Of a stretch of DNA of 64,000 bases, positions 32,309-59,175 are shown piece after piece. Position numbers and translations under genes: made by a program. The stretch comes from Acrocarpospora macrocephala (GTDB taxonomy: Bacteria > Actinomycetota > Actinomycetes > Streptosporangiales > Streptosporangiaceae), in assembly GCF_009687865.1 (NCBI RefSeq), contig NZ_BLAE01000065.1:1-64000 (forward strand). The letters run 5' to 3'. The first letter of the stretch is position 1. Each line of letters opens with the position of its first letter. Below the pieces are notes generated by a model. It was given only the letters and a program-made list of their open reading frames with translations. It ran no database searches and was not told the DNA's origin.

Positions 32309-32346
32309 AAGTGGACCTGTGGGTTGCCGCACGGCGGTGCTTTCAT
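32309..32346 (+). promoter_or_regulatory. Cluster promoter P1 (shared box and -10)
   Basis: The box AAGTGGACCTGTG (32309-32321) is followed after 19 bases by TTTCAT (32341-32346). The 13-base box is identical to that of promoter P4 25 kb away. It drives the acyltransferase-MFS-acyltransferase-HAD operon starting at 32376. Confidence 0.7.
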
Positions 32347-32375
32347 GAGGTCGGGATACGACCGGGGGGTGAAGC

Positions 32376-33440
32376 TTGGAAGTCTCGTTCGGCCGGAGCG
32401 TCCGGGGATTGTTCGCGGGCGAGGATGGCGGGGAGTTGTACAGCAGTGATGCCTGGCTGGAGCTTCTTGAGCGGGTGGGCCATGAGCATCGGTATCTGAC
32501 TGTGGCCGACGGTCCGGGCCGCGCGATGGTGCCGGTGTGTGCGGGAGAGCAGGTCAGGTCTGGCCGTTATGCCGTGGGTTATCTGCTCGCCGGCCGGCTG
32601 GCCGCGCGGGAGTGTGTCGTGGCCGCGCCGCAGGCCGGGTATCGCAACGCGCCGAGGCTGGGCGGTGGCGCGACGGCGGCGCTTCTGGCGGGTGGAGTTC
32701 TGGACGCTTTTCCGGATCGGGTGACGATCATCCCCTACGTCAGCAGGGACACCGCCGAGGGCCTGCGGGCCGCCGGTGTCCAGGTGGAACCGCTGGTCAG
32801 CGATGCGTGGCTGACGCTTCCCGGGAATGGGTTCGACGACTACGCGCAGTCCCTCGCGCCGAAGCGGCGGCGTATGGTCCGGGCCGAGATGCGTACCGCG
32901 GCGGAGTCGGGGGTGCGCTATTCCGTCGTGGATCCGATGGATTGCGCGGACGAAGCCGCCGCCCTCTTCGTCGGTCAGATGCGGAAATATGACGCTAACT
33001 ACCGGCGGCCTGCCAGCGACTACGTCGCATACATCAAGGAATGCGCTGGTCTCCTGAAGGGCTTCATGATCACGGCTCGGTTTCGGGGTTCCCTTCTCGG
33101 GTGTGCGGTGTTCTTCTTGCACGGCGGCACGCTCTGGGGGCGAATGCTCGGCATCGATCACCGGCAACCGGCGCACCGGCAGGTCTATTTTCAGCTCGTC
33201 TTCTACCGGGCCATCGAGCTCGCCTACGAGATCGGCGCGAGGGCGCTGCATCTCGGCATCGGCTCCTACGCGGCCAAGACGCAGCGCGGCGCCGTACTGG
33301 AAACGCTGTGGGTGGGTCTGGCCGGGAGGGATCCCGAACTGGTCGCGATCGCCCGCGCCGGCGTGCGCGAACGCCGCCGGGCCGACGCGGCGGAATCGCC
33401 TGGTCAGCAAGGGTCTCCTCCACCGTGCGCGGCTACGTAG
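32376..33440 (+). CDS. FemAB/GNAT-like acyltransferase 1
   Basis: 354 residues with the double-GNAT layout of the FemAB-like (PF13480/PF04339-type) N-acyltransferases: a basic segment FDDYAQSLAPKRRRMVRAEM in the middle and a C-terminal core with YFQLVFYRAIELAYEIGA followed by IGSYAAKTQRG. Relatives transfer aminoacyl or acyl groups to amino sugars, lipids or peptides. TTG start with GGGGGG about eight bases upstream. It overlaps the MFS gene by 16 bases. It is one of four paralogues in the cluster; donor and acceptor cannot be told from sequence. Confidence 0.75.
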   Translation: MEVSFGRSVRGLFAGEDGGELYSSDAWLELLERVGHEHRYLTVADGPGRAMVPVCAGEQVRSGRYAVGYLLAGRLAARECVVAAPQAGYRNAPRLGGGATAALLAGGVLDAFPDRVTIIPYVSRDTAEGLRAAGVQVEPLVSDAWLTLPGNGFDDYAQSLAPKRRRMVRAEMRTAAESGVRYSVVDPMDCADEAAALFVGQMRKYDANYRRPASDYVAYIKECAGLLKGFMITARFRGSLLGCAVFFLHGGTLWGRMLGIDHRQPAHRQVYFQLVFYRAIELAYEIGARALHLGIGSYAAKTQRGAVLETLWVGLAGRDPELVAIARAGVRERRRADAAESPGQQGSPPPCAAT

Positions 33441-34636
33441 GCGTCCTCGCCGGGCCGGTCTTCCGCCGTTACTACGCCGCCCAGTCGGCGTCGATGCTCG
33501 GGGACGCCTTCGCCCCCACGGCGATCGCCCTCTGCCTGGTCGGGACCGGTGACGACGGAGGCTGGCTCAGCGCCTTCCTCGCCGCGGTCACCCTGCCGCG
33601 CCTGGTCGTCACGCTGATCGGCGGCGTCCTGGGGGACGCGCTCCCGAAGCTGCCGCTGCTCATGGCCGGCTTTCTCGCGCGCGGCTGCCTGCAACTCGCC
33701 ACCGGCCTGCTGTTCCTCCTCGACGGCCCGCTACCGGCGGCCCTGCTCTGCCAGCTGCTGTACGGCACCGTCGCGAGCATCGTGTTCCCGGTGGGCTTCG
33801 CCTACCTGCCGGTCTGCGTCGGCGAGCGGGAACTCGGCCCGGCCAACGGCCTGCTCGCCAGCACGCTGAACCTCGCGAACATCGTCGGCCCGACGTTCGT
33901 CGCCCTGATCGCCCTGGTCACCCGGGACGCGGCCGTGGCGATAGTCCTGGACGGGATCACCTTCTTCGCCGCCGCGCTGCTGATGCGCGACCTCCCCAGG
34001 GGCGCCGCGACGGGCGGGATCAGCCTGGGCGGCGGGATCGCGAGCCTGCGCGCCGGATGGGACACGCTGCGGCGGGTCCGCTGGCTGCTGCTGGAGACCA
34101 GCGTCTCCGCCTCGATGTTGTTCTTCGTGACGGCGCCGTTCATGGTGTTCGGCCCGTCGCTGGTCGAGTCCCACGGCTCCGGGGCGTGGGCGCTGGTCAT
34201 GACCGCGTTCGGCGTGGGCAGCGTGCTCGGCGGCACGGCGGCGGGAGCGGCCCAACCTTCCCGGCCGGTCCTGTGGGCCGGAGCCGGGTTGGGCCTGCTC
34301 GCCTTCCCGCCGCTGACTCTGGCCCTGGACCAGCCCTTCTGGATCATCTGTGTGGCGGAGGCCGGAGCCGGTGTCGGGATCGCCGCCTATTCGGTGCTGA
34401 TGTCGTCATCGATCCAGGAATCCGTGGAGTCCGGGCTGATGGCCCGGGTCAGCGCGGTCTCCTCGGCCGGATCGTTCGTGCTGTTCCCGCTGGGCCTCCT
34501 GATCGCCCCCGTGGTCGCGGGCGGAACCGGGCAGTCCGGTGTCCTGATATTTGGCGGCTTGTGGGCGGTCGCGGGGACGCTGGTCCTGGTGGCCAGCCGC
34601 GACGTGCGCGCCTACCGCGCGGAGGGCCGGGGGTGA
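33425..34636 (+). CDS. MFS exporter of the cluster
   Basis: 403 residues, about 12 membrane segments, resembling the MFS_3/enterobactin-exporter-like group: an early YYAAQSASMLGDAFAPTAIA segment, GVLGDALPKLPLLMAG (motif A-like) and ASTLNLANIVGPTFVALI. GTG start within the acyltransferase gene, with a 4-base GTGA overlap to the next acyltransferase. Located inside a biosynthetic operon, so it probably exports the product or an intermediate. Confidence 0.85.
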   Translation: MRGYVGVLAGPVFRRYYAAQSASMLGDAFAPTAIALCLVGTGDDGGWLSAFLAAVTLPRLVVTLIGGVLGDALPKLPLLMAGFLARGCLQLATGLLFLLDGPLPAALLCQLLYGTVASIVFPVGFAYLPVCVGERELGPANGLLASTLNLANIVGPTFVALIALVTRDAAVAIVLDGITFFAAALLMRDLPRGAATGGISLGGGIASLRAGWDTLRRVRWLLLETSVSASMLFFVTAPFMVFGPSLVESHGSGAWALVMTAFGVGSVLGGTAAGAAQPSRPVLWAGAGLGLLAFPPLTLALDQPFWIICVAEAGAGVGIAAYSVLMSSSIQESVESGLMARVSAVSSAGSFVLFPLGLLIAPVVAGGTGQSGVLIFGGLWAVAGTLVLVASRDVRAYRAEGRG

Positions 34637-57959: not shown

Positions 57960-57989
57960 GGGCGGCGGATGATCGGCTTGGTGGACCCC

Positions 57990-59129
57990 TCAGACTCGGG
58001 CTTGGCGGAGGAAGCGGGGGCGGATGCGGTTGCCGTACATCGCGAGCGCGGAGGCGATGGCCATGTGCATGTCGAGGTAGGTGTACGTGCCGAGACGCCC
58101 GCCGAACAGCACGTCCTTCTCGGCGCGGGCGAGTTCCCGGTATCGCGCCAGGCGAGCGCGGTCGGTGGGGGTGCCGATGGGGTAGTACGGCTCGTCTCCC
58201 GGGCCCGCGAAGCGGGAGTACTCGCGGGCGATGACGGTGCGGTCGCCGGGATAGTCGCGCTCGGGATGGAAGTGGCGGAACTCGTGGACCCGGGTGTACG
58301 GCACGTGCTCGTCGGCGTAGTTCATCACCGACGTGCCCTGGAAGTCGCCCTGAGCCAGGACCTCGAACTCGAAATCCAGGGTCCGCCAGCCCAGCGCCCC
58401 CTCGGCGCGGCCGAAGTAGCCGTCCAGCGGTCCGGTGTAGACGACGGGAACGTTCCCGGCCGCGCCCAGTTCGGCGAAGTCGGTGCCCAGCCGTACCTCG
58501 ATCAGCGGATGGTCGGCCATCCTCTCCAGCCACGCCGTGTAGCCGCCGACCGGCAGCCCCTGGTACCGGTCGGCGAAGTAGCTGTCGTCGAAGGTGTAGC
58601 GCATGGGCAGCCGCGTGATGATCTCCGCGGGCAGTTCCCTGGGGTCGGTCTGCCACTGCTTGGCGGTGTAGCCGCGGATGAACGCCTCGTACAGCGGCCG
58701 CCCGACCAGGGATATCGCCTTCTCCTCCAGATTGGCCGGATGGGCGACCTCGCCCGCCTGCGCGGCGATCAGCGCCCTGGCCTCGCCGGGCGACATGGCC
58801 CGGCCGAAGTAGGCGCAGATCGTGGCCAGGTTGATCGGCATGGGATAGACGCGATCCCCCGCGATCGTGAAAACCCGATGGCGATAGTCGGTGAATGCCG
58901 TGAACTGGTTCACGTACTCCCAGACCCGCTCGTTGGAGGTATGGAACAGGTGCGCCCCGTAGCGGTGCACCTCAATGCCGGTCGACGGCTCGACCTCGCT
59001 GTAGGCGTTGCCCCCGATATGGTCCCTGCGCTCGACGACGAGCACCCGCAGCCCCAGGTCCCTGGCACACCGCTCCGCGACAGTCAGCCCGAACAGCCCC
59101 GCCCCCGCGACCACAAGATCAATATCCAT
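57990..59129 (-). CDS. glf: UDP-galactopyranose mutase
   Basis: 379 residues, the standard length. FAD-binding [58 protein letters not shown], the [16 protein letters not shown] stretch and [15 protein letters not shown] are family hallmarks. Converts UDP-galactopyranose to UDP-galactofuranose, pointing to a furanose sugar in the product (or envelope). Own promoter P5 with an almost leaderless start. It marks the right end of the cluster regulon. Confidence 0.95.
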
Positions 59130-59137
59130 TGCGTTTC

Positions 59138-59175
59138 AACGTAACGGCCACACCTGCGCTCGCCGAGGTCCACTT
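59138..59175 (-). promoter_or_regulatory. Cluster promoter P5
   Basis: On the minus strand AAGTGGACCTCGG (59175-59163), sharing the first 10 bases with P1 and P4, followed after 19 bases by TACGTT (59143-59138). The predicted start of transcription is within a few bases of the glf ATG. Confidence 0.62.

Follow-up and report, generated by a model that had tools for sequence, protein, structure and literature searches.

A box shared by six promoters of an Acrocarpospora macrocephala gene cluster as a candidate half-site for a MocR/PdxR-type regulator probably placed beneath a SARP

In the available portions of the papers cited here, SARP sites are described as heptameric direct repeats (PMC10972967, PMC5930380), and AfsR/SARP regulators encoded within clusters carry a BTAD domain and have operators with an 11-bp heptamer period nearby (PMC10972967). 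In the pimaricin system, a triple heptamer with 4-bp spacers, the site of the large SARP-LAL protein PimR, lies in front of the gene for another regulator, the PAS-LuxR protein PimM, which in turn serves the biosynthetic promoters (PMC5930380). MocR regulators combine a GntR winged helix-turn-helix (wHTH) with an aminotransferase-like domain, and common types among their operators have inverted or alternating boxes spaced by one or several turns of the helix (PMC5320631). PdxR of Corynebacterium glutamicum shares this architecture, activates pdxST and has the motif AAAGTGGW(-/T)CTA (PMC4494728). The present study concerns a 64,000-nucleotide stretch of the Acrocarpospora macrocephala genome (contig NZ_BLAE01000065.1, positions 1 to 64,000; the window), in which a short box stands before six operons of a gene cluster. 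The sequence inclines us, with moderate confidence, to read this box as the half-site nearer the promoter in the operator of a dimeric activator of MocR/PdxR type, most likely the protein encoded at 48249-49688, in an order of control that would lead from a SARP to the MocR-like protein and from there to the six promoters.

The box has the form RAGTGGNYC, usually followed by TGTG, and a T....T -10 element follows it after exactly 19 bases (Table 1). Identical copies of AAGTGGACCTGTG at 32309 (+) and 57959 (-), reported by the first-pass annotation, are indeed present and are the sole two exact copies in the 12.1-Mb genome; the variants that it listed at 39155 (-), 44307 (+) and 59175 (-), and the T....T elements quoted for them, also lie where it placed them. 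What sets these sites apart is their spacing. A T....T element begins at offset 32 from 7 of the 15 AAGTGG copies in the window, whereas at the 59 other offsets tested the count averages 0.32 and never exceeds 3 (binomial tail 1.2e-8, or about 7e-7 after allowing for 60 offsets); for RAGTGG the figure is 8/38, with a mean of 0.66 and a maximum of 4 elsewhere. Five of the seven AAGTGG matches are counted promoters, the sixth promoter having a GAGTGG site, and the matches at 11757, outside the cluster, and at 39175 were excluded from the set. The 13-mer by itself is uninformative, with 12 occurrences in the window at up to three mismatches versus 11.1 expected, and genome-wide at up to two mismatches it is rarer than its reversed control (153 versus 364); the box alone was rejected as a predictor on these counts. 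The pattern RAGTGGWYCTSKG, built to fit all but one of the six sites, matches the genome 12 times versus 9 for the reversed control, and 5 of the 12 are in the cluster, where all four matches with an initial A also lie. The five cluster matches carry T....T by construction, and one of the seven outside does so (C42:71944). Across nine aligned elements, comprising the six cluster sites and three from elsewhere in the genus that were found by pattern, box positions A2, G3, T4, G5, G6, C9 and T10 and both Ts of the -10 element are invariant. A gap of 23 bp separates the end of the core GTGGWCC from the -10 element, and the box is at about -44 to -36, on the upstream edge of the -35 region, a class II-like position. 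At the methyltransferase and UDP-galactopyranose mutase genes the start codons lie only 5 and 8 bp past the -10 element, and these transcripts are therefore probably leaderless.

Comparison with Acrocarpospora pleiomorpha NBRC 16267, the one close relative found in a search of genome contigs, supports five of these sites as first described and relocates the sixth. Window positions 32303-62771 align with the A. pleiomorpha contig in syntenic pieces of 92.8-94.3% identity separated by small gaps, and box, N19 and T....T are kept at 32309, 39155, 44307, 57959 and 59175; the 44307 box and the 39155 -10 element show single-base changes. The first-pass annotation had placed a rightward promoter at 39175 with TTCGTT as its -10 element. 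Near 39 kb, however, a 7-nt indel falls just past 39175, between two inverted units (39147/39175 and 39192/39220) that are both intact; at the 39175 spacing A. pleiomorpha has TTAGCC, and hence no T....T. The element at 39220 retains both spacing and -10 sequence, as AAGTGGCCCTGGG-N19-TCCCAT here and TAGTGGCCCTGGG-N19-TCTTAT in A. pleiomorpha. Because T....T is lost for 39175 and kept for 39220, the rightward promoter is assigned to 39220, and 39175 belongs to the leftward unit as its distal arm. Six promoters thus remain; the claim of a fixed N19 at six sites holds in that the spacing is far above chance and five of the positions are right, the coordinate of the sixth being wrong. The A. pleiomorpha homology starts at 32303, six bases ahead of the 32309 box. 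In the 45 kb of the A. pleiomorpha contig compared, the adjoining segment 26896-32302, about 5.4 kb with two-component genes, is lacking at this position, and its cluster-side break falls at those six bases before the first box.

Most of the boxes have a partner. Inverted pairs of the form GGTCCACTY-N19-RAGTGGWCC, 28 bp from start to start and with at most two mismatches, are found at 39147/39175, 39192/39220 and 57951/57979; a shorter inverted pair at 44288/44307 has its arms 19 bp apart, and at 59167/59182 the second arm is direct and 15 bp off. At 32309 the comparison with A. pleiomorpha revealed no conserved second arm. The 28-bp spacing recurs on another contig of the same genome, C89 (25522/25550 and 25564/25592), and at four places described below: C42 in the same genome, G001:C157, G003:C16 and G003:C69. 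The strict form GGWCCACTY-N19-RAGTGGWCC has no match in the A. macrocephala genome, and when SARP loci were searched without bias for inverted 9-mers, the 28-bp spacing was not enriched.

The cluster half-site AAGTGGWYC resembles the PdxR motif in the available text of PMC4494728. Among PdxR-family loci, AAGTGGWCY occurs in six copies at 4 of 27 loci within 6,750 bp of upstream sequence (250 bp each), where upstream means upstream of the profile match, with no mapped start, and where the 27 include mutual orthologues; the remaining 110,817 bp contain none. These 27 come from 30 PdxR-family loci; L092-L094, which belong to other families, were dropped. A half-site core of AAGTGGW and the GntR wHTH joined to an aminotransferase-like domain are shared with C. 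glutamicum PdxR and MocR regulators, and the wide spacing of half-sites may be a further common feature (PMC4494728, PMC5320631). Unlike those systems, the arms in the cluster diverge with a 19-bp spacer, the targets would be biosynthetic promoters and not pdxST, and both the lysine that binds pyridoxal 5'-phosphate (PLP) and the DDYD motif are replaced in the cluster's protein; binding here is proposed from sequence.

The protein in question, encoded at 48249-49688, carries an N-terminal GntR wHTH (Pfam GntR, 6.6e-11). Its best NCBIfam match is PdxR (NF052282) at 256.7 bits, below the cut-off of 320, and it is therefore classed as MocR-like and not as PdxR. Searches with phmmer against the Protein Data Bank (PDB) returned PdxR (7pq9, 8.3e-29) and GabR (4n0b, 1.3e-23), and GabR and PdxR were also the first folds retrieved by Foldseek with the predicted structure (pLDDT 85.2); the TM score is about 0.68 over both domains with a root-mean-square deviation of about 15, the domains being differently placed, and the deviation is 2.6-3.0 A for the C-terminal domain. 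Both methods place a fold type I aminotransferase-like domain at the C terminus, for which Pfam gave no aminotransferase match. The PLP-binding lysine is absent, with GSFGAVLTP standing where GabR and PdxR have F-S-K, as it is from 23 of the 25 rows in an alignment of the paralogue L034 with 24 of 30 matches, six having been left out. Translation probably begins at the ATG at 49628 (MRQPQRL), because homologues carry a Met at the place of Met21, a ribosome-site-like GGGGAG lies ahead of it, and the predicted structure has low confidence over residues 1-24. A search of 345 genomes of the order found a close orthologue only in A. macrocephala itself and in G004 (94%; next best 51%). The PLP lysine and the DDYD motif are likewise lacking from the MocR-like regulators that relatives within the family encode (L032, L033, L048-L068 and others). 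A conserved gene of about 645 codons adjoins several of ten MocR-like neighborhoods; the one product scanned (L107) had no Pfam match.

The proposed link from this gene to the SARP at 39641-42934 comes from operators of a different kind. One stretch immediately ahead of the MocR-like gene and another in the interval from the SARP gene to 43252 are heptameric direct repeats with an 11-bp period, the form of a SARP operator (Table 1); the repeats at 49700-49728 are identical in A. pleiomorpha, the operator at 43139-43167 is kept there, and operators of the latter type also lie upstream of the SARP gene in two other genomes (G019 and G326). Orthologues of the SARP were present in 7 of 80 genomes searched, including its own, which has a paralogue on C89. 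In nine sequences (the SARP orthologue loci, the C89 paralogue, the window and the A. pleiomorpha contig), TCAG triples with an 11-bp period number 12 in 393,823 bp, versus one for 19 other periods together and none in 83,641 control bases, for a core that was picked after being seen in SARP upstream regions. Eight of the nine sequences contain such a triple, G200 being the exception, and the window and A. pleiomorpha do not count as independent cases. Triples in the window are confined to 43142 and 49703, and there is no further TCAG doublet at 11 bp between 31000 and 63500, so the six box promoters lack 11-bp TCAG repeats. TCAGC doublets in the window are not commoner at 11 bp than at some other periods, with two at 11 bp and three each at 15 and 21; it is the triple that is distinctive. 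The AAGTGG box, in contrast to the two TCAG operators, has inverted arms at 28 bp. Thus, of the first-pass description of the box, a shared activator-type element at the -35 position before most operons stands, whereas its identification as a SARP/BTAD site is not supported. A further candidate for the SARP's own site, the tandem TGGAACG repeats in its promoter, was dropped: such heptamers with a 10-bp period (TGGAACGGNATGNNACG, at most one mismatch) occur at 17 places in the genome versus one for the control and at 10 to 26 places in each of five genomes versus 0 to 2 for the reversed control, and they were not found in the SARP promoters of six orthologues in other genomes. Among 30 TGGAACG loci, several precede genes for secreted or lipoprotein-like products, one precedes a SARP gene and several precede genes of MocR-like paralogues.

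Collectively, the observed sequences, spacing, conservation and operator types suggest the following model. The 1097-aa SARP would bind the triple TCAGnnn heptamers before its own gene and the MocR-like gene, and not the box; a dimer of the MocR-like protein would bind the box as promoter-proximal half-site, with a second half-site upstream at most promoters, and would presumably activate. Control would then pass through two tiers, from SARP to MocR-like protein to six biosynthetic promoters. Promoter 5 precedes a minus-strand gene run whose last gene is the MocR-like gene, and if this run is one operon, positive feedback would result. The arrangement is reminiscent of PimR and PimM, from which it differs in having a MocR/PdxR-like GntR protein as second tier, a TCAGnnn heptamer and not CGGCAAG (PMC5930380), and a SARP-type operator also before the SARP gene itself. 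No precedent for a MocR regulator under a SARP was found in the open-access literature searched, including the available parts of PMC8584621, on a HutC-type GntR regulator, and PMC11481915, on a FadR-type one. The fuller proposal, in which a lysine-less MocR-like protein is a cluster-wide activator of the second tier that is switched on by the SARP, acts at PdxR-type half-sites in six class II positions, feeds back on itself and answers to a signal other than PLP, is tentative, and we give it slightly less than an even chance; the signal is perhaps a pathway intermediate.

Several observations weigh against assigning the box to the MocR-like protein. Head-to-tail MocR dimers are thought, in the available text of PMC5320631, to be better suited to direct repeats. 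The protein itself scores under the PdxR cut-off, the exact AAGTGGWCY is upstream in only four of the 27 PdxR-family loci, and the order of the arms there differs from that in the cluster. Paired AAGTGG arms were not seen near its closest paralogues, which are 44-51% identical and have also lost the PLP lysine; in one genus, seven paralogue loci carry GAGTGGACC just once, and 16 of 20 paralogue promoters examined carry another element, TGGAACGG. The idea that AAGTGG is the site of all lysine-less MocR paralogues was rejected, since the paired arms were not seen. In addition, composite elements, defined as the inverted repeat with TG after the box and T....T after 19 bases, occur outside the cluster at C42, G001:C157, G003:C16 and G003:C69, and neither G001 nor G003 yielded a close orthologue of the MocR-like protein. 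Because close orthologues were found only in A. macrocephala and G004, another protein of the genus must read the elements in G001 and G003, and the same protein could read the cluster boxes.

A chromosomal MocR/GntR paralogue shared by the genus would be such a reader, and the cluster would then be wired into an older genus regulon. Across the 345 genomes of the order, GGWCCACWY-N19-RWGTGGWCC is not enriched overall (7 places in 6 genomes, the reversed control having 12 in 11; 3 versus 1 in the same genus), but the -10 spacing, counted in one orientation, is present in 3/3 places in the same genus and 0/4 in other genera. A PdxR-type gene is situated at a distance of about 4.4 kb from the element on C42, and one at 2.8 kb from that on G003:C16. 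Against this, 14 MocR/GntR loci of the A. macrocephala genome (L032-L045, each with 1.5 kb on either side; the MocR-type gene on C135 lies outside this set) contain no exact AAGTGGWYC or RAGTGGWCC, and we regard a genus paralogue as an unlikely reader, at roughly one chance in a handful. The elements at C42:71944 and G003:C16:103210 both follow a tyrosine recombinase gene and have similar downstream sequence; the gene further downstream differs between the genomes. These outside elements also bear on the suggestion that the box set covers most operons and defines the cluster and its regulon: the box does precede most cluster operons, but the SARP gene and 43252 are outside the set, and with composite elements beyond the cluster and in relatives that have no close MocR-like orthologue, "defines" is too strong.

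Direct binding of the box by the SARP (39641-42934), or by the second SARP at 59925, through an unusual inverted operator is improbable. Its best argument is C89, where the double inverted unit, with no MocR gene in cis, accompanies a SARP paralogue (74%) as well as homologues of 37344 and the small gene. Of its four arms, three read AAGCGG and one AAGTGG, and the -10-like elements lie one base further, an arrangement that would also fit a SARP co-diverging with its site. The MocR-like protein of the window can, however, act in trans on C89; moreover, SARP sites are direct repeats, orthologue loci of this SARP carry 11-bp TCAG triples of which there are none at the six promoters, and at six of those loci (G019, G326, G015, G003, G200 and G085) AAGTGG is isolated, without 28-bp pairs. 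Recognition of box and -10 element as one bipartite promoter by an alternative sigma factor, also raised by the first-pass annotation and in keeping with the fixed spacing at six promoters, is very improbable, since such promoters have -35/-10 spacings of about 15-19 bp and the 23-bp gap between core and -10 element is too long, and since the inverted distal arm would be left unexplained.

Table 1. Promoters, regulators and operators in the window. Genes were called by a simple script based on GC content by codon position, and gene ends and coding or intergenic labels are approximate.
Feature	Coordinates	Strand	Elements	Context
Promoter 1	32309..32346	+	box AAGTGGACCTGTG 32309-32321, N19, TTTCAT 32341-32346	before FemAB-like gene 32376; conserved in Acrocarpospora pleiomorpha
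Promoter 2	39118..39183	-	box GAGTGGATCTGTG 39143-39155, N19, TTTCAT 39118-39123; distal inverted arm AAGTGGTCC, 39175-39183	methyltransferase ATG 39112
Promoter 3 (corrected)	39192..39257	+	box AAGTGGCCCTGGG 39220-39232, N19, TCCCAT 39252-39257; distal arm GGTCCACTC, 39192-39200	before small gene 39317
Promoter 4	44288..44344	+	box AAGTGGTTCTGTG 44307-44319, N19, TAGATT 44339-44344; distal arm 44288-44296	before epimerase gene 44378
Promoter 5	57922..57987	-	box AAGTGGACCTGTG 57947-57959, N19, TACGCT 57922-57927; distal arm 57979-57987	
Promoter 6	59138..59190	-	box AAGTGGACCTCGG 59163-59175, N19, TACGTT 59138-59143; second arm direct, GTGTGGTCC, 59182-59190	UDP-galactopyranose mutase ATG 59129
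MocR/PdxR-like GntR regulator	48249..49688	-		proposed box-binding protein; without PLP lysine
SARP	39641..42934	-	Trans_reg_C, BTAD, AAA and TPR; 1097 aa	candidate regulator of the first-pass annotation
Second SARP/BTAD protein	59925..62789	+		box not seen in front
SARP-type operator	49700..49728	-	TCAGCAC-N4-TCAGCGG-N4-TCAGGCC	directly upstream of MocR-like gene
SARP-type operator	43139..43167	-	TCAGCGC-N4-TCAGCGC-N4-TCAGGAA	between SARP gene and 43252
Tandem TGGAAC(G) repeats	42983..43011	-		SARP promoter; genus-wide repeat element
Small 91-aa protein gene	39317..39592	+		behind promoter 3; homologue beside SARP paralogue on C89

The genes of the cluster encode two ATP-grasp ligases, several FemAB/GNAT-like proteins, two glycosyltransferases, a UDP-galactopyranose mutase and a carbamoyltransferase, and a literature search on the product class gave no usable match. 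Paralogous pairs lie in 45416-48268 and 52018-57949 (glycosyltransferases, 43% identical; ATP-grasp ligases, 36%; proteins without Pfam match, 31%). The last gene of the promoter 2 run, 36451-37380, encodes an APH-type phosphotransferase.

Assigning operators through orthologues, which gives TCAG heptamers and not AAGTGG to the SARP, corrects an easy misreading. If the proposed assignment of the box to the MocR-like protein is true, the cluster's switch would be named, together with the gene to express in order to wake the cluster. It would also extend SARP cascades to a second tier of MocR type, and would draw attention to MocR-like proteins without the PLP lysine and to the signal that they sense.

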